From Bacteroidia bacterium (GTDB lineage Bacteria; Bacteroidota; Bacteroidia; UKL13-3), in assembly GCA_025454975.1 (NCBI GenBank), contig JALONK010000023.1:1-46783 (forward strand): a DNA stretch of 46,783 nt, given 5' to 3'. The notes below the pieces were generated by a model. The model worked only from the letters and a program-made list of their open reading frames with translations. It made no database searches and was not told where the DNA came from. Shown piece after piece: positions 17,617 through 41,612 of the stretch; position 1 is the first letter of the stretch; the number at the start of each line of letters is the position of its first letter. The position numbers and the translations under genes are program-made.

Positions 17617-19854
17617 ATGAAACGCCTAATTTTATTTTTCTTGTTTATAATAAGTCTTTCCGTATCGGCCGAAATTACTGTTACAGGTACAATAACCGAC
17701 GCAACATCAGGCGAAGTATTAATTGGTGTATCAGTTTTTACATCCTCACGCAAAGCAGGAACAGTTTCTAATGCTTATGGATACTTTTCGTTAAAACTTC
17801 CTTCGCCTGACTCGGTATATTTCACTTACTTAGGCTATGAAACAGTTGGTGTATTTGTAAAAGAAGAATCGGAATATACCATTAAGTTGAAATCAACTAT
17901 AAAGCAATTACAAACCGTAGAAATAAAGGCAGGTGATATAAATAAGGTTAAACCATCAGTAATTACACTCGACTTAAGATTGTTAAATGAATTGCCAACA
18001 GTGGGCGGTGAACGCGATTTAATTAAAGCAGTACAATTATTACCCGGTGTTAAAAAGGGTGCAGATGGTACAGCTTCTATGTTGGTGAGAGGGGGCACCA
18101 ATGATCAAAATTTAATTTTACTAGACGATGCTCCGGTATATAACCCTACTCATCTATTAGGTATTTTTTCATTGTTTAATACCGATGTTATTAAACACGC
18201 AACTTTTCAAACAGGGGGTTTTTCTTCTATGTATGGCGGACGATTATCATCTGTACTTGATGTGTACATGAATGAAGGCAATACTGATAAACTAAAGGTA
18301 AGAGGTGGAATTGGTGTACTGGCCAGCCGCTTGGCTATTGATGGACCTATTTCTAAAAATAGAGGAACATTCTTAGTTGCCGGTCGCTACAGTTACGTAA
18401 ACAGGGTTTTTGAAATGATGAATAAAAGCCTGCCATTTTATTTTTATGATTTTAATGCTAAAGTGAATCTTAGGCTTACTGATAACGATCAACTTTTATT
18501 AAGCATTTATGAAGGCGATGATGTGTTAAATACAAACGATAAGGACAGTTTATTTAATGTAAACTTAAACTCTCGTATGGGTAATGGTATTCGTAGTATA
18601 AGATGGAATCATAAGTTTAAAAACCGTGCTATGTTTGCCAACCTCACAGCTTTTAATAGTAAATATAGATATATCATACAGGGTGGCTTTAATAAAAATA
18701 CAGTTGAAGTATCCTCAGCCATTAACGATTATGGTTTAAAGTATGTGTTGAATCATTCAGTAAATAGTAAATTGTTTATGAAATATGGGGCTGATGTAAT
18801 CATGCATCAATTTAAGCCGAACAGCACAAAATTATCAGGAGAGTTTAATAATGTTTTACGAAACAGAAATGATACTACGCAATATCTATACGAGAGTGCT
18901 TTGTTTATTCATCAAATGTACAGGATAAATCAACGATTAATATTGCATTCAGGATTAAGGTTTTCAGGTGCAAAGTATTATGGAGGAAATCAATGGAATA
19001 TTGAGCCAAGGTTATTAATGGTATATCAATACTCATCTAAGGCTACCTTACAAATTGGTTATGCACGTATGGCTCAATATATGTTTCAATTATCAGGTTC
19101 TTCTACCATCTTACCAACTGATTTATGGTATGGTGTGCAACAAAATATAAAAGCCCCAACTGCCGATGTATTTACGGTAAGTTATGAATATGCATGGCAA
19201 CATCATCAAACCAAAATAGAAGGCTATTATAAACCTATGCAAAATCAAATTGAATATAAAGAAGGTGTGGTTGATTTTACACCTGCTGATTTAGCGGCTA
19301 CAATTACTCAAGGTAAAGGTGTTGCGTATGGGATTGAACTTACACAAAAAGGTACGCATCAACAATTTTCTTATCTATTGGGATATTCTCTTTCATGGTC
19401 GTATCGAAGGTTTGATGAGCTGAATAACGGAAATGTTTTTTTAACCAGATTTGATAGAAGACACGATTTAAACCTTGTTCTGCAATACGAGGTGTTGAAA
19501 CGATTGCAAATATCCGCTGTATGGAATTATGCCAGTGGTTCACGTTTTACTCCGGTTATCGGACGATTTATGATGCCTTCCGGTAATTTAAATAGTGTTG
19601 ATGTTCTACCAATATATGGTGGTCGTAATTCATCACAATTGGCAGCCATCAATCGCCTAGACATCAATATGTCGCTAAAGTCGAAAGCGAGCAATAAATT
19701 CCAAAGTGAATGGCAAATCGGCGCATATAATGTATTCAATCGTACTCAGCCATTTCGAGTTCGGATGGAAAACAGGAGCAACGGACAGATTGCATATAAA
19801 CAAGTAGGCTTGTTTGGTTTTATCCCATATGTTTCTTACCAATTTCAATTTTAA
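17617..19854 (+). CDS. TonB-dependent receptor, no STN domain
   Basis: 745 aa. A signal peptide (1-18, cut after SVSA) is followed by a carboxypeptidase-regulatory-like domain (about 20-105: ITVTGTITDATSGEVLIGVS). A plug (about 115-235: VRGGTNDQNLILLDDAPVYNP) and a barrel ending VSYQFQF complete it. It is clearly homologous to the receptor at 11553 (LLDDA, KYGGR/MYGGR and barrel strands) but lacks the STN domain, so it should transport without signalling. It is preceded by terminator plus ECF promoter C and followed 2 bp later by a DUF4249 gene. It probably imports the same or a related ligand under control of the local sigma factor. Confidence 0.92.
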   Translation: MKRLILFFLFIISLSVSAEITVTGTITDATSGEVLIGVSVFTSSRKAGTVSNAYGYFSLKLPSPDSVYFTYLGYETVGVFVKEESEYTIKLKSTIKQLQTVEIKAGDINKVKPSVITLDLRLLNELPTVGGERDLIKAVQLLPGVKKGADGTASMLVRGGTNDQNLILLDDAPVYNPTHLLGIFSLFNTDVIKHATFQTGGFSSMYGGRLSSVLDVYMNEGNTDKLKVRGGIGVLASRLAIDGPISKNRGTFLVAGRYSYVNRVFEMMNKSLPFYFYDFNAKVNLRLTDNDQLLLSIYEGDDVLNTNDKDSLFNVNLNSRMGNGIRSIRWNHKFKNRAMFANLTAFNSKYRYIIQGGFNKNTVEVSSAINDYGLKYVLNHSVNSKLFMKYGADVIMHQFKPNSTKLSGEFNNVLRNRNDTTQYLYESALFIHQMYRINQRLILHSGLRFSGAKYYGGNQWNIEPRLLMVYQYSSKATLQIGYARMAQYMFQLSGSSTILPTDLWYGVQQNIKAPTADVFTVSYEYAWQHHQTKIEGYYKPMQNQIEYKEGVVDFTPADLAATITQGKGVAYGIELTQKGTHQQFSYLLGYSLSWSYRRFDELNNGNVFLTRFDRRHDLNLVLQYEVLKRLQISAVWNYASGSRFTPVIGRFMMPSGNLNSVDVLPIYGGRNSSQLAAINRLDINMSLKSKASNKFQSEWQIGAYNVFNRTQPFRVRMENRSNGQIAYKQVGLFGFIPYVSYQFQF

Positions 19855-19856
19855 CT

Positions 19857-20741
19857 ATGAAAAAAATTATCATTTTAACTGTTGGATTTTTAAGCATGAT
19901 TATTTGTTTATTTTCATCATGCACACCTGAGCCATTACCTTTAAAAATTGCTGATAGCTCACCAAAAGTTGTAGTTGCAAGTCAATTCGCATTTGATAGT
20001 TCATCAAACCAAAACTTATTAATAGTAATTCTCACACGTTCGTTAGCAGTCGGTAATGGTTTTACTCCAATAGCGGATTCTTCCGGATTAAATATACCTG
20101 ATGAGTTACGGTTTACTAATGCAACTGTTGAAGTTCATACCTCAAGCGGTGTTATCACTTGCGCAGAAGTTGATGGTGGAGTTTATGTTGCAACTAATAT
20201 TTCTTTTGAAGCCGGTGCAACAGCCAAATTAACTATTAAACAAGCTGATGGTACTTTGGTAGCCGACGCAATTACACCTATGATGACTTCAACATCCTTT
20301 AGTATGATTTCATTGGCACGTGTGAGTAATTTTTATGAAGTTAGTTACATACTTGACGATAATACAAAAGAAAAAAATTGGTATGTGGTTAATTATTTCA
20401 CAGGAAACACACGCGATTCGGGCAGTGTTACCGATCCCGGATATATTGCACGTAAATTAACTGAACAAAAAGCTGAATTTGATTTGTTTACCGATAAAGA
20501 TTTTAATAATGGCACACTGGCTGTTCGCAAGAATATCGGTGCATCGGTATTAGATACTGTAGTTGTTGCCGTATCTTCTATTTCAGAAGGATATTTTAAT
20601 TTTTTAACAGTGCAAAAAAGATATGGTTCATTAATAAATCAAATCAGAGGTGAAGCACTTACATTTCCAACAAATATTAGCAATGGGTTAGGGTATTTTA
20701 CTTTTCATCAACCCAAACTTTATATCCTAACTACCGATTAG
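19857..20741 (+). CDS. DUF4249 domain lipoprotein
   Basis: 294 aa. The lipoprotein signal ends ..CLFSSC (C22, TPEP after). It has the beta-rich DUF4249 fold pattern (KVVVASQFAFDSSSNQNLLIVILTRS) and is a paralogue of the gene at 14114. It starts 2 bp after the second receptor, so it is surely co-transcribed with it; a surface partner of that receptor is the best guess. The stop TAG overlaps the stop of the convergent DUF4838 gene in the 4-bp string TTAG. Confidence 0.85.
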   Translation: MKKIIILTVGFLSMIICLFSSCTPEPLPLKIADSSPKVVVASQFAFDSSSNQNLLIVILTRSLAVGNGFTPIADSSGLNIPDELRFTNATVEVHTSSGVITCAEVDGGVYVATNISFEAGATAKLTIKQADGTLVADAITPMMTSTSFSMISLARVSNFYEVSYILDDNTKEKNWYVVNYFTGNTRDSGSVTDPGYIARKLTEQKAEFDLFTDKDFNNGTLAVRKNIGASVLDTVVVAVSSISEGYFNFLTVQKRYGSLINQIRGEALTFPTNISNGLGYFTFHQPKLYILTTD

Positions 20742-23017
20742 TTTACATAAATTTCGTCAATAGCCAACATTGGTTTTTTGTTTGCCCTAAAGCGCCAAGT
20801 TGGTATTATAGGTTGGTTCTTTATTTTAACATGCACGAATCGTACACGCATAGGTGGTATTACGTATTGAAACAGTGAAGGTGAACACGTAAAATGTTCG
20901 TCCATTGCTTCATTAAGATTGGGATTACCATTAACAGGTTTTGCCGTAACATATTTCACTCCATCGCTTGAAACAGTAACTTCAATTTGTGATGGTAAAA
21001 ATATCCAATGTCTTGGATCGTCTAATAGATTAAAACTTATGGAATCTACTTCTTTAGTAGTTTCCATGTCAATGGTAACATCAATATCGTTACCATAAAA
21101 ACATAACCAGTTATAACTATAATCGCAATAACCTGTAACACCATCATTAATGGTTTTATCGCCTTTTGCCGGATAATCTTTAATGTAAGGAATTTTGAAA
21201 CTTACTTTGGCTTCCATTGCCATGTTATATTTAAATCCTTTAGCAAGAATATTCATCCACTCTTCGCGATAGGCTTCCGGTGTAATTCCTCCTTCGCTAA
21301 GTTCGGTTATTTTAAATCGGTTAAGATTATCTACAAACTTGTTAATGCGTTTCGGTATCGAACCTTTAATAATATAATTTAATGATTCTTCATCTTGTAC
21401 AAGATAGCCATGCTTATCAGGCCCGAAGAATTTAGCTTGTTGTAATGATGTATAATCGAGTGTTAACCTTAAGCGGTAAATTCTATTTAATACTTTTTCA
21501 AATTCCTCAACTGCACCTTCAGCCTTATCAAATATGGTTGAATATTGATCTAATAATTCAGGTGATAAGTAACTGTTATATTCATTTATCGGATTGCCGT
21601 AAATATCAATTTGTCGGTTGGTTTTCCTTGATTCTGTTTGTATGAGGTTTATATATTCTGATATGTACCTGCCGGCACTTTTATAATAACCCTTACAAAA
21701 ATCGTTAATCAGTTCCTCTTCTGTTAAATCAGGATTCCACATTAATCGTGCAATCATATAGCTTTTTAATTCGGCGAAATCGCTGTAGGTATATCCACTT
21801 CCTTGACAGAATATACCTTTAACTTGGTGTTGTAACATATACCTGATGTTATCATCTAAGTTCATGATATCAGGAAAAGGAGCAAGGTAATTTGTAAATT
21901 GAGTAGAATAATCCCAAACAAATAAACGGTCGGTTAACTTCTCCCAACCTTCCAATGCTTTTCTAAAAGGAGCAGCAGTTGGTTCGGCAGGAATGGGTTG
22001 TGTTCTATAAGCATCAATGGTGCTTAACATGATGTAAACATTTTTGGCAGGCTTGGTTTTAAGTGGTGGCTTCATGGTATAGGTATAAGCCAAGCTTGTA
22101 AACTTCTTATCAGGAAACGCCTCCGCAATACGATTTACAAAGCGAAGATGAGCACCTCCGGGTGTTCCTTCTTCTGCATGAATTGCACTACATTTATCAC
22201 ATTGGCAATATCCAATATCATCTTCTGCACTGATACTCCAATATTCAGCTTCAGGAGCATCGGCCATTTTCATTTTTAATGATTCAATGGCAATATTTAT
22301 AACAGCATCGTTACTAACACAAAGTTGTGTGACCTTTCTTATTCCATTTTCTAATGCAAAATATTCTGGGTTTGTTTTAAAGTATTGGCTTGGATTAACG
22401 AGTTTAAAATACGAATGTCCCCATATACCCCATAAGTCTTCAAAACGATGTAGTTTATGCCAATTTAAATATTCTTCATCACTGCTCATCGGATAAAATG
22501 ATTCGCGATAAATTAACTTAGGTTGATATTCATATTTATAAGATGAGGGTAGTCCCCAATCTTTAAATTCACCTACTTGACCGGGTTCATCAGCAAATTT
22601 TTTACCTTCTAAAAATCGTTCGATAAATTCATATGCTCCATAAACAACTCCTCTACCTATTCCACCATAAATAACAAAATCTTCACTGTTAGAAGCCATA
22701 AAAAATCCTTCACCTGTAATTGCAGGAGGATTAAATCCTCTCGACTTTTCAGTTTTGCCAACATATATTCCGGGTTTTGATGTCCATGCATTTTCTTTTA
22801 CTATAAATAAAGTAACACCGGTGGCTTTTAGAATATAGTCTTGTATTATTTTCGCGGCTTTACTTTCGTTAGCTGTATTTCTAACCGGAATTACGATAGC
22901 ATGAGAGGTAGTTTTGTTTACCACCACAGGGAAATCACTTGCCCAATTACATGAGGCCGAAACCAATAATAAAACGATGAGAAAAATATTTTTAAAACTG
23001 CATTTAAGCATGAACAT
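20738..23017 (-). CDS. DUF4838 domain lipoprotein, probable glycoside-acting protein
   Basis: 759 aa. The lipoprotein signal ends VSASC (C23). An N-terminal alpha/beta domain (about 30-140) resembles the GH20b-type domain that precedes catalytic barrels of hexosaminidases. The DUF4838 core (about 150-420: FALENGIRKVTQLCVSND, YCQCDKCSAIHAEEGTPGG) follows, then a helical region. A C-terminal discoidin-like domain (about 620-759) ends it. DUF4838 proteins are uncharacterised; the fold suggests a glycoside hydrolase-like (beta/alpha) barrel. It is the last gene of the six-gene polysaccharide-type operon, 3 bp after the TPR/barrel gene. A polymer-trimming or modifying role, like PgaB, is inferred. 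Confidence 0.83.
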   Translation of the reverse strand: MFMLKCSFKNIFLIVLLLVSASCNWASDFPVVVNKTTSHAIVIPVRNTANESKAAKIIQDYILKATGVTLFIVKENAWTSKPGIYVGKTEKSRGFNPPAITGEGFFMASNSEDFVIYGGIGRGVVYGAYEFIERFLEGKKFADEPGQVGEFKDWGLPSSYKYEYQPKLIYRESFYPMSSDEEYLNWHKLHRFEDLWGIWGHSYFKLVNPSQYFKTNPEYFALENGIRKVTQLCVSNDAVINIAIESLKMKMADAPEAEYWSISAEDDIGYCQCDKCSAIHAEEGTPGGAHLRFVNRIAEAFPDKKFTSLAYTYTMKPPLKTKPAKNVYIMLSTIDAYRTQPIPAEPTAAPFRKALEGWEKLTDRLFVWDYSTQFTNYLAPFPDIMNLDDNIRYMLQHQVKGIFCQGSGYTYSDFAELKSYMIARLMWNPDLTEEELINDFCKGYYKSAGRYISEYINLIQTESRKTNRQIDIYGNPINEYNSYLSPELLDQYSTIFDKAEGAVEEFEKVLNRIYRLRLTLDYTSLQQAKFFGPDKHGYLVQDEESLNYIIKGSIPKRINKFVDNLNRFKITELSEGGITPEAYREEWMNILAKGFKYNMAMEAKVSFKIPYIKDYPAKGDKTINDGVTGYCDYSYNWLCFYGNDIDVTIDMETTKEVDSISFNLLDDPRHWIFLPSQIEVTVSSDGVKYVTAKPVNGNPNLNEAMDEHFTCSPSLFQYVIPPMRVRFVHVKIKNQPIIPTWRFRANKKPMLAIDEIYVN

Positions 23018-23020
23018 ATT

Positions 23021-25951
23021 TTAAAATTTTCTTAAGAACATGAAGAACAAATCATATTGGTTGCGGTATAAACCACTTACCAATTGTTGATTATACCACG
23101 TGCCGGTAAACGAAAATTGGTTACGGTACTTGTATAATTTAGAATAGCCCATACTAAAGCTGTAGGTAGTTATATCTAAGTTTTGAACCAACTGAAAGTT
23201 TCTACTAAATTCATCGGGCGTATTACCAATACCAACTGCCGCTGTAACAAATTCGGTACCTTGAGTTAAATATTGGCGTCCTGAAACTACTGCTGCATGA
23301 TAGAGGTTTCCACCCTGATACATACCAAAGTACCTGAGGTTACCCCAGAAATCTCCATAATAACGTGTAGCCGACGCTACTATTGATGGGATATTAATAT
23401 CATCGCTTGCGTCTGAATTGTCGTTATTGAATTGTAAAAATCTGAAACCTCCTTCAAAGGTGTATGTTTTCTTATAGTTATAATTAATACTGTACCCTAA
23501 TCTAATTGTAGGGAAAACTAAATTATTCGAGATACCGGCAGTGGCAAACGAGAACCATTTTTTATTATGAATATAATTCAAATCGCCTTCCAGTTGAATG
23601 CCTGTTCCTAAGGTACGCCCGGCCATATTTAGTCTGCCGCCAATCGAACCTTTTTTGAAGAAGCGCATATACTGCAAGGTTGCAATACTTGCCCTGGTTA
23701 ATGTACTAGCCGAATCAAAAATGGTGTATAAAAACATAAATCCCATTTGATTCTTCAGCGACTTAGCTTTTATTTGATCTGCAAAATCAATGTTTTTTAA
23801 TGTTGGATTCATTTCTGCAACACTATCAGCCGCTAGTGATGCTTCCTCAAAGCGTGACATTTTATCAAGAATTACCGCACGCTTGAAAGTAAACATTTCG
23901 TTTCCGGGATAATAATGCAGTGAACGTGAGTTTACTGCTAGTGCTGAGTCGTCAAGGTTTTTAGATAATAAAATATTTTGGCTGTAAATTAATGCATTAC
24001 TATCACGTGGTGAAATAGCCAATACTTTATTAAATTCATATAAGGCTGAGTCAAAGTTATTTCTTTTGTTATACTCTCGTCCACTTGCCAATACTTGTTC
24101 GAGGTATGCTTGTTTAATTTTACTGTTGTATGGATAACGTTCGCGCAGAGCTCCGGTAATGGTATACGCTGCCACATAATCTTTCATGGCTTCTAATACC
24201 GACGATTTTTTTAACAACAAATCTTTATTGTTTGGCTCAAATAATAATGCCTGATCACAATAATACAATGCTGTATCAAATCTTTTGCTGCCACTTTCCA
24301 AGTTTATCATACCGTTTAAGGCGGCATTATTCGTTGGGTCTAATCGTAAAATAATCCTGTATTCTTCTCTGGCGCCATCAAAATCTTCTGCTGCCATCAT
24401 GTTTTTAGCATGCACAGTTTTAATGTCTATAACCAGGTTTTTATAGCGCTCATTATCGGGATGTAATCTGTGTAAGGCCATTGCTTGTTCTGATGCGGCT
24501 TCATATATACCTGCATCATACAACACAGTAGCTCTTCTCAACATAAACTTTTCATCCTTCGGGTAATTTTTTAATCCTTCATCTAAATATTGAAGTGATT
24601 CATCATATTTTTTTTGTTGAGCATAAGCATCGGCTGTAAAATATAATCCATCATAATTATCAGGCTGAATGGCTAGTGCAGTTTTAAAATTTGCTATTGC
24701 GCTATCATATTCAAACTGACGCATATTTTGGCGGCCGCTTAAGATATTAAACTCAACTGCTTGTTGACGATAAGTTGCATTGCCGGGTGAAATTCTATAC
24801 AACCTTTCTGCGGTGTTAGCAGCTTCACTATATCGTTGCATGGTTTCTAATGTACCTACTTTCTTTTGCAGAAATTCAGCATCATTAGGATAGGCCATTA
24901 ATGCTTTATTTTCATATACCAAGGCGTCGAAGTATAATCCACGAGCAGTTGCCAGGTTTATTACATAATTAAGCGCTTCTCTATCACGAGGTCGTTTTTC
25001 CAACACGCCTTGAAATACCAAATAGGGGTCTTCCTTCATATAAAAACGACCTGCTGCCATTTGTGTTTCATAGTGCAAGATTTGTGCACGGGCATCGCCG
25101 GGATAATAGGAGATGAGTTTGGATGTGACCTCTAATGCTTCTGCAAACCGATATTGTTCGTTGAGTAAGGCTGCTTTTTTGGTAAGAAATTCATAAGACC
25201 TCGGGTTCTTATTTAGTTCAATATTTACCACCTCCATGCTAGCAGCGATGTTTCCTTTTTTAATTTCAAGGTTATACATCCCCTCCGAAGCTTCACGATT
25301 ATAAGGTGCTTCTTCCAATACTGAAGAATAACATTCGCGAGCCTTAAAGTAATTACCCATTTTGGTATAGTACCTTGCCATTTCAAGTTTGTAGCTTACA
25401 TAATAATTGATGGCAATACTATCATTGTAATGTACACTAATTAGTTTTTCGGCATAGGTTTCTGCTGAGCGGAAGTCGCGGTTAAAATCGAGCACTTCCA
25501 ACTTTTTAATCATAAAGTCTCTTTCGTATGGAAAATAGTATAAACCGTCATTAATAATACATAATGCTTCTTCTTTGTTATTCAGTTGCATCTCAATGTT
25601 GGTGCCAAGTAAATATGCATCACGATAGCGTGGCGCTTTTCGCATCACATGTTTCATTTTAATACGGGCACTGTCCATCTGACCATTTAACATAAATGCA
25701 CGACCTTGCATGAAGTGAAGGTCCATATAGTCGGGACGATTTTCTAAACCCTGATAAGCGATATTAATAGCTTTTCGGTAGTCTTTTTCTCTTATTTTTT
25801 GATTAACTATGGCCAGATAATCATCTGCATTTAGTTTTTTATCACCCCAAGGTAATTGGGCTGATGAAGATAAACACACCACCATAAGAAGCAGTGTGAC
25901 AAACCATTTTTGGAGCATACCTAAATGTAGTATTAGGGGATATTTGTTCAT
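23021..25951 (-). CDS. TPR protein with C-terminal YaiO-type outer-membrane beta-barrel
   Basis: 976 aa. A signal peptide ends at about residue 32 (LLLMVVCLSSSA before QLPWG). About 20 TPR-like helical pairs fill roughly 40-700 (e.g. YRKAINIAYQGLENRPDYM, NFKTALAIQPDNYDGLYF). The last about 260 residues form a YaiO-family beta-barrel ending in FFMFLRKF with terminal Phe. A periplasmic TPR superhelix fused to a barrel is the layout of PgaA and BcsC, the export channels of synthase-dependent polysaccharides. A start at M12 (25918) would give a more usual signal peptide. It lies 2 bp after the second GT2 and 3 bp before the DUF4838 gene. Confidence 0.88.
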   Translation of the reverse strand: MNKYPLILHLGMLQKWFVTLLLMVVCLSSSAQLPWGDKKLNADDYLAIVNQKIREKDYRKAINIAYQGLENRPDYMDLHFMQGRAFMLNGQMDSARIKMKHVMRKAPRYRDAYLLGTNIEMQLNNKEEALCIINDGLYYFPYERDFMIKKLEVLDFNRDFRSAETYAEKLISVHYNDSIAINYYVSYKLEMARYYTKMGNYFKARECYSSVLEEAPYNREASEGMYNLEIKKGNIAASMEVVNIELNKNPRSYEFLTKKAALLNEQYRFAEALEVTSKLISYYPGDARAQILHYETQMAAGRFYMKEDPYLVFQGVLEKRPRDREALNYVINLATARGLYFDALVYENKALMAYPNDAEFLQKKVGTLETMQRYSEAANTAERLYRISPGNATYRQQAVEFNILSGRQNMRQFEYDSAIANFKTALAIQPDNYDGLYFTADAYAQQKKYDESLQYLDEGLKNYPKDEKFMLRRATVLYDAGIYEAASEQAMALHRLHPDNERYKNLVIDIKTVHAKNMMAAEDFDGAREEYRIILRLDPTNNAALNGMINLESGSKRFDTALYYCDQALLFEPNNKDLLLKKSSVLEAMKDYVAAYTITGALRERYPYNSKIKQAYLEQVLASGREYNKRNNFDSALYEFNKVLAISPRDSNALIYSQNILLSKNLDDSALAVNSRSLHYYPGNEMFTFKRAVILDKMSRFEEASLAADSVAEMNPTLKNIDFADQIKAKSLKNQMGFMFLYTIFDSASTLTRASIATLQYMRFFKKGSIGGRLNMAGRTLGTGIQLEGDLNYIHNKKWFSFATAGISNNLVFPTIRLGYSINYNYKKTYTFEGGFRFLQFNNDNSDASDDINIPSIVASATRYYGDFWGNLRYFGMYQGGNLYHAAVVSGRQYLTQGTEFVTAAVGIGNTPDEFSRNFQLVQNLDITTYSFSMGYSKLYKYRNQFSFTGTWYNQQLVSGLYRNQYDLFFMFLRKF

Positions 25952-25953
25952 TT

Positions 25954-27489
25954 TTAAGCCGGCTGCGGTGAAGCAGGTACTGCTTTAGGCTTTTGTCCGA
26001 ATCCTTGGCGTTGCATATTACCCCAACTGTGTTTTTTACCTGTGATAAAGTTATAATATCCTTTTAGCGCAAAAAACACAATCAATGGATGATAAATTAA
26101 CGGTTCAAGGAACGCCATCATGCATAAACCCAACACTTCACCCCATGTTTTGTAATGCCTGAAGGTTAATTGATCCCAAAGCAGCGCTAAGGTAGTAATC
26201 ATAACGGAATAGAAATACACAAATATCAACAGGATTTTTGCATATGGCCAATTTATTTGATTAGTGATAATTATGTAGATGTAATAAGCAATCCCGGTGG
26301 CTTCAATCATAGGAGCCAAAAACTCGAATAAGAAGTTATATGGAAAAACTATCAGCCCTAAACGTCCGTAGGATGGATTAAATAATACTTTTCTATGTAC
26401 CACCATAATCTCAAACAACCCACGTCCCCAGCGGGTGCGTTGCCTGCCGAAGATTTTTAAATTAGGTGGTCCTTCAGTCCAACACTGTGTTGTTGGAATG
26501 TACTTAATCATGTACTTCTTTTTGTTATTACGCATGTATAAAGCCATACGCGTAACCATGTCCATATCTTCAGCGAATGATTTACCATCATATCCGCCCG
26601 CCTCAATGGCAACTTCTTTGTCAAACATACCCAAACCACCACTCACGTTTGGTACTGAATTAATCAAACTCCATCCCATTTTACCCAAAACATAAGCACG
26701 TATATATTCCATTTCTTGAAAGCGAGGAATTAGTGCTTTTGGTGGACGAACACGGGTGATTACTCCTTGGTCAACATCACATGAGTTGGCAATCCTCAAC
26801 GTTGCTCCGGTAGCTATAATACGTTTGTAATCTTCTTGTATATGCACATAACCGCATTCCGGACAAGGGACTCCGACTTCTTTAATTTTTTTCTCTTCTT
26901 CATCCAAAAATGGTTTAACCATTTTTAACAAGGTGTCTTTCTCAATAATACAATCAACATCGGTACATAAAAAGTAAGGAAATGATGAACAGTTGATACC
27001 TGCATTAGAAGCATCAGCTTTACTTTTTCCGTTAACTTTATCCACAACCATCAATTTCTCGTAAGCTTTATCGGTTGATCTGAAAATACGTTTTACAGGC
27101 ATCGAGAAAAGTTTATCGTTGTAGGCAAAATCAACTTGTACCAATGAAAACTCATGCATCATTTTCTCTAAGGTATCATCTGTACTTCCATCATTAACAA
27201 TAATTACTTCAAACTTTGGATAGTTTAAGGTAAGCAATGATCTAACGTTTGTAATAATGGTAACAGATTCATTAAAGGCCGGTGCAATTACCGAAATACC
27301 CGGTGCGTGAGCGGCTTCAACTATTTTATCATAATCAACATAACGTTCGGCATTTACAAATTTACGTACACCAATAAATGACAACACAGCCAACAACGCG
27401 TACACCAATAACATAGTTATACCGTAATAAAAAACCGTGTTCTCATAAAAGAATGTAACCGTATGCCAAAATGAATCTGAATCGTACAT
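25954..27489 (-). CDS. Processive family 2 glycosyltransferase with CPEC insertion
   Basis: 511 aa. One N-terminal transmembrane helix (about 18-42) is followed by a GT-A domain. Its motifs are VNDGS (D100), TDVD (D177, D179), AEDMD (about 306-310) and QRTRW (350-354, the QxxRW motif of processive synthases). Several C-terminal helices (about 375-470) follow. It resembles HmsR/PgaC-type inner-membrane synthases. Compared with the paralogue encoded upstream, it has about 21 extra residues between the DxD and the TGATLR motif, including CPECG (209-213). That is half of a zinc-ribbon-like signature. The C-terminal WGNMQRQGFGQ is shared by both synthases. Confidence 0.92.
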   Translation of the reverse strand: MYDSDSFWHTVTFFYENTVFYYGITMLLVYALLAVLSFIGVRKFVNAERYVDYDKIVEAAHAPGISVIAPAFNESVTIITNVRSLLTLNYPKFEVIIVNDGSTDDTLEKMMHEFSLVQVDFAYNDKLFSMPVKRIFRSTDKAYEKLMVVDKVNGKSKADASNAGINCSSFPYFLCTDVDCIIEKDTLLKMVKPFLDEEEKKIKEVGVPCPECGYVHIQEDYKRIIATGATLRIANSCDVDQGVITRVRPPKALIPRFQEMEYIRAYVLGKMGWSLINSVPNVSGGLGMFDKEVAIEAGGYDGKSFAEDMDMVTRMALYMRNNKKKYMIKYIPTTQCWTEGPPNLKIFGRQRTRWGRGLFEIMVVHRKVLFNPSYGRLGLIVFPYNFLFEFLAPMIEATGIAYYIYIIITNQINWPYAKILLIFVYFYSVMITTLALLWDQLTFRHYKTWGEVLGLCMMAFLEPLIYHPLIVFFALKGYYNFITGKKHSWGNMQRQGFGQKPKAVPASPQPA

Positions 27490-27504
27490 GTTTGTTTGTA
27501 AATA

Positions 27505-28971
27505 TTATGAGGTTGCCGTTACTGTTCTTGCTCTAGCGCCACCTTGACCAAAACCTTGACGCTGCATATTACCCCAAGTATGTTTTCTATTTCCTAAGAA
27601 ATTGTAATATCCTTTTATTGAATAAAACACAATCAAGGGATGGTAAACTACCATTTCAAAAAAGGCAGTTAAACATAAAGTAATTATTTCGCGTGATGTT
27701 TTATAGGTTTGATAAGTGATTTGGTCCCATAGGATGGATAAAGTTGAAATCATTATTGCGTAAGTGTAAACAAATACCAATAATAAAATCGCATAATCCC
27801 AATTAATGGCATCTAAGAAAATAATAACGATATAATAAATGATACCAAGTGCCTCAACAATTGGTGCCAGTAATTCAAAAACAAAATTATAAGGCATTAC
27901 AATCATGCCCAATCGGCCGTAGTTAGGATTGAATACTAATTTTCTGTGCTGCCACATTAACTGCGCAAGACCACGAGCCCAACGAGCCCTTTGCCTTCCA
28001 TAAACTTTTATGGTAGCCGGACCTTCAGTCCAACACAAAGTAATTGGAATATAACGGATAGCATAATTGATTTGATAGTTGATACAGTAGGTCATCATAC
28101 GTATAACCAGCTCCATATCTTCGCCAAATGATTGCGGGTCGTAACCGCCGGCATTAATGGCAATTTCCTTATCAAACATTCCTAATCCACCCGATACATT
28201 GGGTACACAATTAATAACACTCCAGCCCATCTTACCCATTACAAATGATCTTATGTATTCAATTTCTTGAAAACGCGGTAATAATTGATTAGGTACAACC
28301 ACACGTTGCATAAACCCTTGTTCAACAACACATGAGTTTGCCATACGTAAAGTAGCGCCTGTGGCTATGATTCTTTTTTTGCTGTCATCCATTACCGGTT
28401 TAACCAATTTCATAATGGTATCACGGTCGAGAATTGAATCTACGTCGGTACAAATAAAATAATCAAATGATGATGCATTTATTCCTGCATTTGAGGCATC
28501 AGCTTTTGCCTTACCGTTTACTTTATCTACAATGGTTAGTTTGTTATATGCAGGATTTGATGATTTAAAAATCCTCTTAATTGGCTTCGTTTTTAATCGT
28601 TCGTTATAAGCAAAGTCTACTTCCACAAGATCGAACTCACGAACCATTTTCTCAAGCGAATCATCCGTGCTTCCATCATTAACAATAATTACTTCGTATT
28701 TTGGATAATTAAGGTTTAATAATGAGTGTACGTTTTCTATAATTGTCAGCGATTCATTAAAGGCCGGTGCAATTACTGAAATGCCGGGCGTAAGTTTCGA
28801 ATTTAATAACAATGAATAATCAACATGTGAATCTAATTTTTGAAAACGCCTTACTGCACTTAAAGATAGTACAGCTAATAGTGCATAAATAAGCAATAAG
28901 GTTGTTCCATAAACAAAAACAGCACCTTCATAAAATTCACCTACAAGTTCAATGTATGTTCCTGTTTTCAT
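27505..28971 (-). CDS. Processive family 2 glycosyltransferase
   Basis: 488 aa. An N-terminal transmembrane helix is at about 20-40. The GT-A domain carries VNDGS (D99), TDVD (D176, D178), GEDME (283-287) and QRARW (327-331). Four or so transmembrane helices follow (about 355-455). These are the features of a membrane synthase that polymerises and extrudes beta-linked hexosyl or N-acetylhexosaminyl chains. The upstream HEAT gene stops at the base next to its start codon. Two different processive synthases in one operon suggest either a heterodimer or a two-sugar polymer. Confidence 0.93.
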   Translation of the reverse strand: MKTGTYIELVGEFYEGAVFVYGTTLLLIYALLAVLSLSAVRRFQKLDSHVDYSLLLNSKLTPGISVIAPAFNESLTIIENVHSLLNLNYPKYEVIIVNDGSTDDSLEKMVREFDLVEVDFAYNERLKTKPIKRIFKSSNPAYNKLTIVDKVNGKAKADASNAGINASSFDYFICTDVDSILDRDTIMKLVKPVMDDSKKRIIATGATLRMANSCVVEQGFMQRVVVPNQLLPRFQEIEYIRSFVMGKMGWSVINCVPNVSGGLGMFDKEIAINAGGYDPQSFGEDMELVIRMMTYCINYQINYAIRYIPITLCWTEGPATIKVYGRQRARWARGLAQLMWQHRKLVFNPNYGRLGMIVMPYNFVFELLAPIVEALGIIYYIVIIFLDAINWDYAILLLVFVYTYAIMISTLSILWDQITYQTYKTSREIITLCLTAFFEMVVYHPLIVFYSIKGYYNFLGNRKHTWGNMQRQGFGQGGARARTVTATS

Positions 28972-30129
28972 TTAATACTTGATTAGCGGATTCATACAAT
29001 GTTTAAGAATGATGGCATTATCCGGCGAGGCAGTGTCAATCAGTTGTTGCACTATTTCTTTCGTTTGCATGCCATGATTAATCAACGAGCGTGCAGCATT
29101 CTTTTTAATATCAAAATCGTTTGATCTTAAAAACTCCGATCTCAAGAAGTTTATTTGACGACCGGTTCCAAATCGTCCCAATGCTTTTAAAATTTCAAGT
29201 TGACAACGCAAAGGTTGATTATTATAAATAGAAACCAGATGTTCTTCCACACTATCCGCTTTAAGTTTGCCTAAACAATTAATTGCATCTGCTCTTACAT
29301 AGTGGTCTTTAGTACTTAACAATTTTACAATTGCAGGAATAGCCTCATGTTGGTTGTAATGAATTACCAATTTCAAGCAAAAAGATACAATACTTTTATT
29401 TGGTGAATAAGTAATCCAACGCGCAAAGTTAGGAATCGTTAAACCTTCTGTTGTGGTAATAATTTTATATAATTCCAGTTGGTCCCATAACAATAAAGGT
29501 TCAGTAGCATCATCAAAAAACTTAAAAGGGTCGTTTTTACTTAATTTAATGTAGGCAATACGAGCCTCCGAACGCAATTTCCTGTTTTTGCTATTGGTTA
29601 AAGGAAGGATGATAACGTCGGCAACCGCAATTCCCATGCTGGTAAGTTCAACTAAACCTACAATTTTGGTACTGTTACTAATTGATTTAAGTTTTTTAAA
29701 TGATAGTTTTTCCAACTCAAGCTCCATAAATAGTCGCCTGAACAATACATTTCTATCACCTGAAAAACTTTGCGAAAAGTATATCAAACGATCAATTAAT
29801 GCTTGTTTAACCCATTTTTGTTTGAAAACCGGTTTGGTAAATGGCGTAATGTCGAGTATGGCTTCTTGCGGACTAATTCCATTCATCACATCTTCGTTAA
29901 AAATGATATGGTCAGTAATTAGGTTATCTAAAAACTGATTTATCTTTTTACTCCTAACGTCTTTTAAGTATCCGTTGGCCCTTCTGGTTAGGATAGACGA
30001 ATAGGCAATAAAGGTAGTAGTGATGGCAACTCCGGTTAATAAAATAGCAATCTGTATCACAATAGGGTAACTATCATAATAGTAGAAATACTTTCTAAAA
30101 AACGGACCGAACAAACTGTCGAGAAGCAT
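28972..30129 (-). CDS. Membrane-anchored HEAT-repeat protein
   Basis: 385 aa. One N-terminal transmembrane helix (about 22-44: YPIVIQIAILLTGVAITTTF) is followed by a soluble all-helical region of HEAT-like repeats. These are clearest at about 270-385 (AIPAIVKLLSTKDHYVRADAI, INCLGKLKADSVEEHLVSIY). HEAT arrays are protein-binding scaffolds. It sits between the response regulator (13-bp gap) and the first synthase (no gap). It may couple the phosphorylation signal to the synthases at the inner membrane; this is an inference, and no enzymatic motif is present. Confidence 0.85.
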   Translation of the reverse strand: MLLDSLFGPFFRKYFYYYDSYPIVIQIAILLTGVAITTTFIAYSSILTRRANGYLKDVRSKKINQFLDNLITDHIIFNEDVMNGISPQEAILDITPFTKPVFKQKWVKQALIDRLIYFSQSFSGDRNVLFRRLFMELELEKLSFKKLKSISNSTKIVGLVELTSMGIAVADVIILPLTNSKNRKLRSEARIAYIKLSKNDPFKFFDDATEPLLLWDQLELYKIITTTEGLTIPNFARWITYSPNKSIVSFCLKLVIHYNQHEAIPAIVKLLSTKDHYVRADAINCLGKLKADSVEEHLVSIYNNQPLRCQLEILKALGRFGTGRQINFLRSEFLRSNDFDIKKNAARSLINHGMQTKEIVQQLIDTASPDNAIILKHCMNPLIKY

Positions 30130-30142
30130 CGTTGTTAAAATA

Positions 30143-30520
30143 TTATTTCTTTAATAAACGCCTTACGCGTATTAATAACTCGTCCGGCATGATTGGTTTT
30201 CTTAGATAATCATCAGCACCGATATTTAAACCTTCCTTCACCGCATTTTCAGTTCCCACTGACGAAATTACAATAATTGGAACACCGGCTGCATTCGGAT
30301 GTTGCTTAAATCTTGATATCACTTCAAATCCATTGGAATAAGGCATCATTAAATCGGTAATCAATAAGTCGAATTTATCGCGTTCCAAATATTCTAATGC
30401 ATCTTTGCCATTGCTGGCCGTGGTTACCACATAACCTTCCTTTTGAAGAATGCGGTTAATCACCTTTAATATTAATTCATCGTCATCTATCAGAAGAATC
30501 TGAGTGCCGTTTGTTGCCAT
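30143..30520 (-). CDS. Stand-alone CheY-like response regulator
   Basis: 125 aa, one receiver domain only. Acidic pocket D12/D13, phospho-acceptor D56 in LLITDLMMP, S86/S87 and K108 (RKP) are all present, so it should be functional. There is no output domain, so it acts through protein contact, most likely with products of the operon it heads. No histidine kinase is encoded in the window. Confidence 0.94.
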   Translation of the reverse strand: MATNGTQILLIDDDELILKVINRILQKEGYVVTTASNGKDALEYLERDKFDLLITDLMMPYSNGFEVISRFKQHPNAAGVPIIVISSVGTENAVKEGLNIGADDYLRKPIMPDELLIRVRRLLKK

Positions 30521-30543
30521 AGTTTAATAACACTTTTATGCTT

Positions 30544-30551
30544 CGAAAATA
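30544..30551 (-). promoter_or_regulatory. Putative -7 box (TATTTTCG) for the six-gene operon
   Basis: One mismatch from TAnnTTTG (TTCG in place of TTTG). It lies 23 bp before the response-regulator ATG and is the only candidate seen between 30521 and 30743. The rest of that 223-bp gap shows nothing else definite. Confidence 0.35.
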
Positions 30552-30743: not shown

Positions 30744-31250
30744 TTACTTAATAATATAATCAGATTCATCTTCAGGATCATCGTCAATTTCGGCACAACA
30801 ATCCCTGACATTTCCGGTGAAAATCAGCCTGTGGTAACGTTTTTCATGGGTGTTCGTTTCAACAATCAATGATTTTCTGATGGCATCAATTTGTGTTTTA
30901 CTATTAAAATTAACTGTTATAGTTCCTTGTTTTCCCGGTTGTATCGGGTCGCTGTTATATTCTGTTGTTGAACAATTGCAGGCTTCACTTACACTTAAAA
31001 TAAATAATGGTTTTTCTCCAACATTTTTAAACCTGTAAATAAGTTTAATTTTATCGCCACTGTTTATAGTGCCAAAATTGATTGAAGTTTCTATCCATTT
31101 TATGTAAGTATAATTGCTGGTATCCCTAGCAATAAGTAGGCGTTCTTCAGGTGTAATCCCTCTGAGTTGTGAAGGACTATCGCCAATACAACCCATAATA
31201 AGGAATAAACTAGTAAGCCATAACAAGTTAAGTTTTGAAGGGTAGTTCAT
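30744..31250 (-). CDS. DUF1573 domain lipoprotein
   Basis: 168 aa. The lipoprotein signal ends in LIMGC. An Ig-like DUF1573 domain follows (about 55-150: INFGTINSGDKIKLIYRFKN, ACNCST, PIQPGKQGTITVNFNSK), related to the ASPM/SPD-2/Hydin fold. The family is common in Bacteroidota, its role is unknown, and it is placed in the periplasm. A single gene, divergent from the TlpA-like gene; a TAAATTTG box ends 4 bp before its ATG. Confidence 0.9.
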   Translation of the reverse strand: MNYPSKLNLLWLTSLFLIMGCIGDSPSQLRGITPEERLLIARDTSNYTYIKWIETSINFGTINSGDKIKLIYRFKNVGEKPLFILSVSEACNCSTTEYNSDPIQPGKQGTITVNFNSKTQIDAIRKSLIVETNTHEKRYHRLIFTGNVRDCCAEIDDDPEDESDYIIK

Positions 31251-33415: not shown

Positions 33416-33423
33416 CACCTTTG
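33416..33423 (+). promoter_or_regulatory. Putative -7 box (CACCTTTG) for the GT2 gene
   Basis: One mismatch (C for T at the first base) from TAnnTTTG, 6 bp before the ATG at 33430. It predicts a leaderless or near-leaderless mRNA. Confidence 0.35.
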
Positions 33424-33429
33424 CAAATC

Positions 33430-34611
33430 ATGTATTTCGTAGCAGTAATATTTGTCGTTTGTTTTTTTGTTGTTAGCTACACCTTTCTTGGCTATCCGCT
33501 AATCGTTGGTATATTGGCAGCATTAAAAAGAAAATCAGGTATCGGACAACATCAAATCAATACTCATTTCCAGCCTCCGGTTGCACTGGTGATACCTTGT
33601 TATAATGAAGAATATTTACTTTCACAAAAAGTAGCAAATTGTTTAGCATTAAACTATCCGAAACATTTACTTGAAATCATTTTTATTACTGATGGCAGTA
33701 CCGATGGTAGCGTAGCTTTACTGCAACAATACAAACAGATTACTGTTTTACACCAACCTGAACGTAAAGGTAAAGCTGAAGCTGAAAATAGAGCCATGGC
33801 ATTGGTGAAACAAGAGTATGTTGTTTTTTGTGATGCCAATACTATGTTAAATGCTGATGCCATTAAAAATATAATTAAACATTTTACCGATGAAAAGGTG
33901 GGGGCTGTATCAGGTGAAAAGCGCGTGAATCAAAGTGAAGATGGTTTAGCATCTGCTGCCGGCGAGGGGTTGTATTGGAAGTTTGAATCATGGCTAAAAA
34001 AACAAGAGAGTGATTTACATACTGTTCCTGGTGGGGCTGGCGAGTTAATTGCTTTTAGAAAATCATCGTTTACGCCGCTTAATCCGAATACCATTTTAGA
34101 CGATTTTGTTGCATCTATGCGTATTGCCATTAATGGTGGTAAGGTTGTGTATGAACCTGATGCTTATGCAACAGAAAATGCAAGTTTAAACGTGAAAGAA
34201 GAAACCAAACGAAAAATCAGAATTGCTGCCGGTGCTTGGCAATCTTTATTCATGTTGCCCCAAGCTTTAAATCCTTTTCATGATGCCCTTTTGTTTTTTA
34301 TATATTTTTCTCATAAAGTATTGCGTTGGAGTTTAGCTCCTTTATCTCTGATATTGCTTATTCCTTCAGGATTTATCTTGCATTATTATGTAGGTGGTTG
34401 GTTTAGTTTATTATGGATTGGTCAACAACTTTTTTATTTTATGGTACTTGCCGGACGTATTTTCGAGCATAAACCAATTGGTATTAAAGGGTTTTTTCTA
34501 CCCTATTACTTTATAGTTACTAATTATTGTATGCTTGCCGGATTTGTTAGATATGTAAGAGGAAAACAGTCTGTACAATGGGAAAAAGCAAAACGTATTT
34601 CAGTTGATTAA
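33430..34611 (+). CDS. Membrane-bound family 2 glycosyltransferase
   Basis: About 393 aa from ATG 33430; a TTG at 33421 would add three residues but lies in the promoter. An N-terminal transmembrane helix (about 2-27) is followed by a GT-A domain with ITDGSTDGS and a DAN variant of the DxD motif (FCDANTML). An LDDFVAS acidic motif comes next, with three C-terminal helices after about residue 285. The QxxRW motif is not present in standard form (RKIRIAAGAW at its place), so processivity is uncertain. It lies 2 bp before mce and is probably co-transcribed with it. The acceptor is unknown. Confidence 0.92.
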   Translation: MYFVAVIFVVCFFVVSYTFLGYPLIVGILAALKRKSGIGQHQINTHFQPPVALVIPCYNEEYLLSQKVANCLALNYPKHLLEIIFITDGSTDGSVALLQQYKQITVLHQPERKGKAEAENRAMALVKQEYVVFCDANTMLNADAIKNIIKHFTDEKVGAVSGEKRVNQSEDGLASAAGEGLYWKFESWLKKQESDLHTVPGGAGELIAFRKSSFTPLNPNTILDDFVASMRIAINGGKVVYEPDAYATENASLNVKEETKRKIRIAAGAWQSLFMLPQALNPFHDALLFFIYFSHKVLRWSLAPLSLILLIPSGFILHYYVGGWFSLLWIGQQLFYFMVLAGRIFEHKPIGIKGFFLPYYFIVTNYCMLAGFVRYVRGKQSVQWEKAKRISVD

Positions 34612-41192: not shown

Positions 41193-41260
41193 TAAAAATG
41201 ATAAAAACAAAAAAGGCTGCTTTAAAAACAGCCTTTTTAAGAAGTGGAGCTGCAGGGATT
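41193..41260. repeat. Right copy of direct repeat: tmRNA 3' end plus terminator
   Basis: Partner of 40211-40287. Here the 18-bp AGTGGAGCTGCAGGGATT (41243-41260) is part of the intact tmRNA gene, and the hairpin is its terminator. Confidence 0.85.
41209..41238 (-). terminator. Terminator of tmRNA
   Basis: AAAAAGGCTG (41210-41219) and CAGCCTTTTT (41229-41238) form a 10-bp stem, 7 bp beyond the tmRNA 3' end on the minus strand, with a T-tract in the RNA sense. Confidence 0.85.
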
Positions 41261-41612
41261 CGAACCCTGGTCCGGAAGTGTATTGGACAAGCTTTCTACA
41301 CGTTTAGTTTAGCGTTGGTTGTCGAGAAAAATCAGGCCGCAAAACTTGCCAAATTCATCTGTAGCTCCTTAAGTGCTTTTAATGAACAAGAGCGGTTCAC
41401 AAAAAGGCTTTTCCTAATGATGCCTCTGATGTAAATGCGGTTAAGCTAACACTTACGAGACAATGGCATGTGCGTAATCTTCCTGATTAGGCAGCCATAG
41501 CGAATTGAGTATCGCCAGTTATAGTTTTAGGTATTTTTATTAAAGTGCCAATATCCCAATGCACTACGTGCTTACCCGCCAGATGCGCACCCCGTCAATA
41601 CCGGACAGCCCC
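41245..41612 (-). ncRNA. ssrA: Transfer-messenger RNA (tmRNA)
   Basis: 368 nt. The minus-strand 5' end GGGGCTGTCCGGTATTGACG is the tmRNA signature. GGGGCTG pairs with CAGCTCC at the 3' end (seven pairs, one G-U). The T-arm reads CAGGG-TTCGAAT-CCCTG. The discriminator A is at 41245, and CCA is not encoded and must be added. The tag frame at 41487-41516 reads GGC GAT ACT CAA TTC GCT ATG GCT GCC TAA, i.e. GDTQFAMAA. This fits the G-(E/D)-x-x-(Y/F)-A-x-A-A form of Bacteroidota tags that rescue stalled ribosomes. A TATATTTG promoter box lies 16 bp upstream and a terminator 7 bp downstream. Any protein frame here (e.g. 41198-41434) is spurious. Confidence 0.94.
41487..41516 (-). other. tmRNA proteolysis-tag reading frame (GDTQFAMAA)
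   Basis: Nine codons and TAA inside the tmRNA. Ending in A-x-A-A makes the tagged protein a ClpXP-type substrate. The first tag codon is assigned by comparison with known Bacteroidota tags that begin with G; an earlier resume codon cannot be excluded. Confidence 0.82.

Follow-up and report, generated by a model that had tools for sequence, protein, structure and literature searches.

A conserved HEAT-GT2-YaiO operon in Bacteroidota encoding a candidate synthase-dependent polysaccharide machine

Contig JALONK010000023.1 of Bacteroidia bacterium (assembly GCA_025454975.1, lineage UKL13-3), the whole analyzed stretch of which (46,783 nucleotides) is referred to here as the window, harbors a six-gene operon on the minus strand. 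It encodes, in this order, a small response regulator (RR), a membrane-anchored HEAT-repeat protein, two GT2 glycosyltransferases (GT2a and GT2b), an outer-membrane protein combining tetratricopeptide repeats (TPR) with a YaiO-type barrel, and a DUF4838 lipoprotein. The operon is real and conserved, and it most likely represents a machine for polysaccharide synthesis and export that resembles the synthase-dependent systems in its working but falls outside all the characterized systems tested here. It is best explained, with good probability, as a Bacteroidota synthase-dependent polysaccharide system that is gated by the phosphorylated RR via the HEAT protein. A reading of the sequence alone had proposed an undescribed machine of this kind, and its interpretation is supported by the present analysis, the joint function of the six proteins being still what we infer from their parts. 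No description of the system (YaiO with HEAT, DUF4838, or the YaiO family) was found in the open literature, a scope to which most subscription papers and all bioRxiv preprints do not belong.

Organization of the Operon

The open reading frames (ORFs) of the six genes were found where the sequence-only reading had placed them. They are separated by 13, 0, 15, 2, and 3 bp, in line with the 0–15 bp it had given, and domain scans bore out each of its six assignments. The features of the operon, all on the minus strand, are as follows.

30143..30520, minus strand: RR, a stand-alone CheY-like receiver domain (Pfam Response_reg, 4.7e-32)
28972..30129, minus strand: membrane-anchored HEAT-repeat protein (HEAT_2, 1.5e-10; hydrophobic segment at residues 23–41)
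27505..28971, minus strand: GT2a, a processive-type glycosyltransferase (Pfam Glycos_transf_2)
25954..27489, minus strand: GT2b, a processive-type glycosyltransferase (Pfam Glycos_transf_2), 60% identical to GT2a
26824..26889, minus strand: 22-residue zinc-knuckle-like insert of GT2b, C-P-E-C-G-Y-V-H (C209, C212, H216)
23021..25951, minus strand: TPR-YaiO protein, with a signal sequence, ∼20 TPR repeats, and a YaiO-type outer-membrane barrel (Pfam, AlphaFold)
23027..23752, minus strand: predicted 14-stranded barrel domain of TPR-YaiO, residues 734–975 (AlphaFold model)
20738..23017, minus strand: DUF4838 lipoprotein with a predicted hexosaminidase/glucuronidase-type fold (PF16126, 6.4e-90)
20741..21226, minus strand: C-terminal carbohydrate-binding-type module of the DUF4838 protein, residues 598–759 (structure and sequence matches)
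30744..31250, minus strand: DUF1573 lipoprotein, a possible seventh part, 223 bp upstream of the RR gene (Pfam DUF1573, 3.2e-24)

The operon end assigned earlier (30551) precedes the RR start codon by 31 bp, and the region upstream of RR showed no match to the Bacteroidota-type TAnnTTTG promoter. At the other end, the DUF4838 gene and a convergent DUF4249 gene overlap by 4 bp at the end of the latter.

Conservation Across Bacteroidota

We searched 395 Bacteroidota genomes with the HEAT protein as the query and read the neighborhoods of its matches. A GT2 alignment (A1) next served to retrieve 80 named loci, of which 77 were parsed, the neighbor genes themselves having no role in this GT2-based search. 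In 71 of the 77 loci, HEAT immediately preceded GT2 on the same strand, with 64 of the gaps between −25 and 60 bp, and five of the six exceptions were at contig ends. YaiO was present at a distance of at most eight genes in 66 loci. The complete RR-HEAT-GT2-GT2-TPR/YaiO-DUF4838 order was found outside this genome in seven loci (L063, L065, L083, L086, L087, L088, and L106), and three further copies (L064, L084, and L085) that are cut by contig ends are consistent with it; the same gene order, the lack of which outside this genome would have counted against the sequence-only reading, is conserved across Bacteroidota families. The contig of L083 bears the label Beijerinckiaceae, which is probably a misassignment, as its genes group with Chitinophagaceae in the tree. 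Twelve of the parsed loci, which come from Flavobacteriaceae, Weeksellaceae, Bacteroidales, and others, have a single-GT2 version, HEAT-GT2-TPR/YaiO-DUF4838 with RR present or absent. Such agreement in gene order goes far beyond what chance would give. The conserved core consists of RR-HEAT-GT2-YaiO; DUF4838 and the tandem GT2 vary by lineage.

The periplasmic enzyme varied among the 77 loci: DUF4838 was present in 22, a membrane transferase of the alkaline-phosphatase superfamily in 24, both in 2, and neither in 33. The transferase, which is fused to GT2 in Weeksellaceae, Sphingobacterium, and others, weakly matches the models of phosphoglycerol transferase I (OpgB) and LtaS. The long form of TPR-YaiO was accompanied by DUF4838 in 15 of 15 loci and never by the transferase, which links the barrel protein to the DUF4838 enzyme. 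Both kinds of locus exist in the present genome, the second, transferase-type one being located on contig C55 (L062, 2000–20000). It encodes the transferase, the second YaiO copy of the genome, RR, HEAT, GT2, a sigma-54 regulator, and a PAS/hybrid histidine kinase with an Hpt domain, along with a 120-aa protein without a Pfam match. A DUF1573 lipoprotein gene was adjacent to 13 of 32 DUF4838-type loci vs. 1 of 68 others; it usually follows DUF4838 directly and, in the genus of the window, lies upstream. The DUF1573 lipoprotein is probably a further component.

Components of the Predicted Machine

Synthase-dependent exopolysaccharide systems, covered for five polymers in PMC7112194, are listed there with four parts: an inner-membrane processive synthase, a TPR-coupled outer-membrane pore, a periplasmic modification enzyme, and a c-di-GMP-binding (cyclic di-GMP) regulatory domain or co-polymerase. 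The text of that paper does not mention Bacteroidetes, YaiO, or HEAT. Of these four, the window locus has the synthase, the TPR pore, and, as a candidate, the periplasmic enzyme, but not the c-di-GMP part.

Both synthases matched Glycos_transf_2 (Pfam E-values of 9e-19 and 3.5e-17) and contain membrane segments, one N-terminal and several C-terminal hydrophobic segments being seen in GT2a. The Asp, DxD, ED, and QxxRW motifs were invariant in both proteins and throughout a 25-sequence GT2 alignment, in agreement with the processive motif noted earlier. Cellulose and hyaluronan synthases matched the GT2s across the C-terminal catalytic half. Motifs and membrane segments together suggest that the two proteins are inner-membrane processive synthases. 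In a tree of 109 GT2s, the tandem copies formed one clade (support 99) within the DUF4838-type group; GT2a was monophyletic (support 97), and GT2b was not recovered as a single clade. A 22-residue insert with the pattern C-x-E-C-G-[YH]-x-H, positioned soon after the DxD segment, was present in 11 of 11 GT2b sequences, including that of the window, and in no other GT2 checked. It looks like a zinc knuckle and may be a putative metal site. A third GT2 gene is located at 33421–34611 on the other strand, 3 kb from the operon; its product gave the best single-stretch PgaC-model score of the genome (102 bits), under the cut-off.

The outer-membrane protein belongs to the YaiO barrel family, with scores above the cut-offs of both PF19413 (96 bits at residues 733–914; cut-off 23.9) and NCBIfam TIGR04390 (50.1 bits; cut-off 32). 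Its AlphaFold model (predicted local distance difference test score, pLDDT, of 88.8) showed helices at residues 42–731 and 14 strands at residues 734–975. The relative orientation of the two halves is unsure owing to the predicted template modeling score (pTM) of 0.47. A Foldseek search with the whole protein yielded solely TPR-type proteins among the best 50 matches, and a second structure comparison was therefore used. The nearest folds to the barrel were TodX/FadL (Z 20.9), CymA (Z 19.7), and OmpG (Z 19.0), and the barrel alone had no match by sequence in the PDB. PgaA and BcsC were not among the matches listed in the second comparison, which excludes nothing. With ∼20 TPRs and a predicted 14-stranded barrel in one chain, the protein corresponds to a TPR-coupled outer-membrane pore, and the predicted barrel structure is compatible with glycan export.

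The lipoprotein is a member of the DUF4838 family (PF16126, 302 bits; cut-off 26.6). The same model remained under its cut-off in every control genome, Bacteroides ihuae among them, and NCBIfam has no model for the protein. Cys23 of a lipobox-like segment was invariant in nine members. The N-terminus had been described as GH20b-like; Pfam assigns it instead to GH67N (3e-5), yet the predicted fold is of the GH20/GH84/GH115 type. The best fold match of the AlphaFold model (pLDDT 91.2) was the β-hexosaminidase BT0459 (6q63; Z 21.1, 515 residues aligned, root-mean-square deviation (rmsd) 12.2), followed by GH115 (Z 18.0, 488 aligned, rmsd 4.5), GH84 (Z 15.7, 363 aligned, rmsd 4.2), and GH67 (Z 13.9). 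The protein thus resembles GH20, GH84, GH115, and GH67 in domain layout and fold, whereas it has no sequence family match to their catalytic domains. The C-terminus was comparable to a chitosan-binding module (4zy9; Z 13.8, rmsd 2.5 over 123 residues) and matched the C-terminus of 6q63 by sequence (E 1.2e-12). R171, H201, D266, Y311, and D369, together with four cysteines (C233, C271, C273, and C276), did not vary among 20 members with identities as low as 21%. This conservation argues for a putative active site rather than a degenerate lectin. In the secondary structure of the model, D266 would follow a TIM-type barrel strand at approximately the position of the GH20/GH84 catalytic pair. Three of the four cysteines come directly after the presumed catalytic segment and could possibly form a metal site or disulfides. 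With its predicted glycoside-hydrolase-type fold and carbohydrate-binding-type module, the protein is a candidate for the periplasmic modification enzyme, and the predicted structure is compatible with glycan processing, as the model of the barrel is with export; the structural check proposed by the sequence-only reading did not refute it. PF16126 probably corresponds to GH163, a family of endo-β-N-acetylglucosaminidases. GH163 of B. thetaiotaomicron cleaves GlcNAc-β-1,2-Man (PMC10154615); BT_1035 is listed under GH163 in PMC12834350. In a Sphingobacterium metagenome-assembled genome (L089:14378–16780), one ORF combines NAD-dependent epimerase and class V aminotransferase domains; located between YaiO and DUF4838, it might point to an unusual nucleotide sugar.

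The phospho-acceptor Asp56 was retained in 72 of the 75 small RRs aligned from these loci. A small RR was found at most two genes upstream of HEAT in 48 of 77 loci, and 31 of 93 HEAT loci encode a large, hybrid-kinase-like protein with a receiver at most four genes away. The HEAT protein has one clear hydrophobic segment, at the N-terminus, and its repeats are probably cytosolic. In five loci of Maribacter-type Flavobacteriaceae (L150, L151, L152, L072, and L074), the HEAT protein is enlarged to 690–1190 aa, and those scanned contained further weak HEAT matches. The absence of PilZ- and PgaD-type parts noted earlier was confirmed, with no PilZ domain detectable anywhere in the genome, no PgaD-like gene, and no Pfam match to a c-di-GMP-binding domain among the six proteins. 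The RR and HEAT proteins probably occupy this missing regulatory slot.

Elsewhere in the window, a transfer-messenger RNA gene with the tag GDTQFAMAA was found at 41244–41612.

Comparison With Characterized Systems

The PgaABCD system of E. coli, which makes poly-N-acetylglucosamine, likewise combines in one operon a GT2 synthase, an exporter of TPR and barrel, and a lipoprotein with hydrolase-type domains. However, the window locus has DUF4838 in place of PgaB, a 14-stranded YaiO-type barrel, two synthases, and RR and HEAT in place of c-di-GMP. The scores also spoke against membership: the two GT2s reached 118 and 114 bits with the PgaC model TIGR03937 (cut-off 422.3), which no gene in the genome exceeded; the PgaA model TIGR03939 gave 45.3 bits (cut-off 366.65) over the TPR part only; and the lipoprotein matched only DUF4838 and GH67N in Pfam, with no PgaB deacetylase domain. 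The locus is not a member of Pga, and its barrel and lipoprotein come from other families (YaiO and DUF4838), as had been proposed.

The NGR system of E. coli also pairs a GT2 with transmembrane helices (NfrB) and a TPR-barrel outer-membrane protein (NfrA), the barrel of which is 16-stranded and similar to that of PgaA and BcsC (PMC8669472). NfrB carries a C-terminal c-di-GMP-binding MshEN-like domain (PMC8669472), whereas neither window GT2 has such a Pfam match, and this assignment was rejected. The yaiS-yaiP-yaiX-yaiO cluster of E. coli K-12 provides a precedent for YaiO beside a GT2 (YaiP), here together with a putative deacetylase and an acyltransferase. Membership in it was also rejected: YaiP is a distant relative (22% over 249 aa), the 257-aa YaiO is too short for a long TPR superhelix, and the cluster lacks HEAT, RR, and DUF4838. 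The BcsG/OpgB/LtaS-type transferases of the alkaline-phosphatase superfamily resemble the alternative accessory of the sister loci; such an enzyme is absent from the window locus and present in the C55 copy. A paper on lipocone proved unrelated to the operon. The c-di-GMP part is lacking, but staphylococcal Ica is c-di-GMP independent (PMC7112194), so the synthase-dependent class is kept here as a working analogy and not as an assignment.

Proposed Mechanism and Alternative Explanations

In the proposed mechanism, the two GT2s would polymerize a glycan from nucleotide sugars and move the chain through the inner membrane. Anchored next to them, the HEAT protein would serve as an adaptor bound by phosphorylated RR, which would switch the synthase on or off; RR and HEAT would thereby take the place held elsewhere by c-di-GMP/PilZ or PgaD. 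The TPR superhelix may gather the chain in the periplasm and deliver it to the 14-stranded outer-membrane barrel, and the DUF4838 lipoprotein may trim or bind it via its hexosaminidase-like active site and carbohydrate-binding module. This site and module hint at a hexosamine-containing polymer. Polymerization, export, gating, and the identity of the sugar are thus all read from the properties of the encoded proteins.

Could the glycan stay in the periplasm or bound to the envelope, like an osmoregulated periplasmic glucan or teichoic acid, with the barrel protein used for sensing or anchoring? The alternative accessory resembles OpgB and LtaS, which act on periplasmic or membrane glycans, and the DUF4838 protein is predicted to be a periplasm-facing lipoprotein, as no clear surface-export signal follows Cys23. 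Nevertheless, the TPR-barrel protein lies beside the synthase in 66 of 77 loci, and its predicted barrel resembles the open oligosaccharide channels OmpG and CymA. Opg systems have OpgG and are not known to have an outer-membrane channel. A non-exported glycan is hence considered unlikely. That the GT2s are not polymerases and add just one or a few sugars to some other molecule (protein, lipid A, or a different polysaccharide) is more unlikely still: the breadth of the GT2 family and the PgaC scores far under the cut-off would allow it, but QxxRW is invariant, cellulose and hyaluronan synthases match the catalytic half, and a dedicated TPR-barrel would be needless. The glycoside-hydrolase-type fold of DUF4838 and a nearby TonB-dependent receptor gene (17617–19854, other strand) could also point to a degradative (polysaccharide utilization) or sensing locus, with DUF4838 as a scavenging hydrolase and the barrel as an importer. 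Yet the operon has two synthases instead of a SusC/SusD pair, and the receptor gene, which runs convergently, is not part of the block that other families conserve, making this the least probable of the three and very improbable in itself.

A gated synthase-dependent polysaccharide system is favored by the conservation of the HEAT-GT2-YaiO operon, the invariant motifs and the membrane segments of the GT2s, and the predicted pore fold similar to that of OmpG and of CymA, a cyclodextrin channel. It is also favored by the glycoside-hydrolase-type fold predicted for DUF4838, with its invariant residues and chitosan-binding-type module, by the strict pairing of long TPR-YaiO with DUF4838, and by the retention of Asp56, the nearby kinases, the hybrid kinase on C55, and the lack of PilZ in the genome, and the alternating OpgB/LtaS-like enzyme would again be a polymer modifier. 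Several points weigh against it. The evidence consists of genes, motifs, models, and gene order, from which the glycan itself is deduced. The action of phospho-RR on GT2 through HEAT is the weakest step, the contact between the three being suggested solely by gene adjacency, and several loci have no RR nearby. As A1 was seeded with HEAT-adjacent GT2s, the 77-locus sample is not fully independent. The predicted barrel has 14 strands vs. the 16 of the PgaA/BcsC/NfrA type, and control by c-di-GMP would still be possible because the genome encodes one GGDEF protein.

A more far-reaching version is tentative and somewhat doubtful. In it, the loci would form a distinct Bacteroidota-wide class in which a two-component phosphorelay acts directly on the synthase via a HEAT membrane adaptor replacing c-di-GMP, the periplasmic enzymes (hexosaminidase-like or phosphoglycerol-transferase-like) are exchangeable, the exporter is 14-stranded, and the Chitinophagaceae pair of GT2a and zinc-knuckle GT2b makes a two-sugar polymer. 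Should the locus work as in the mechanism proposed above, an abundant phylum would own a matrix-polymer machine with a route of post-translational control independent of c-di-GMP, and a testable role would be provided for two families of unknown function, YaiO and DUF4838, as well as for the DUF1573 lipoprotein.

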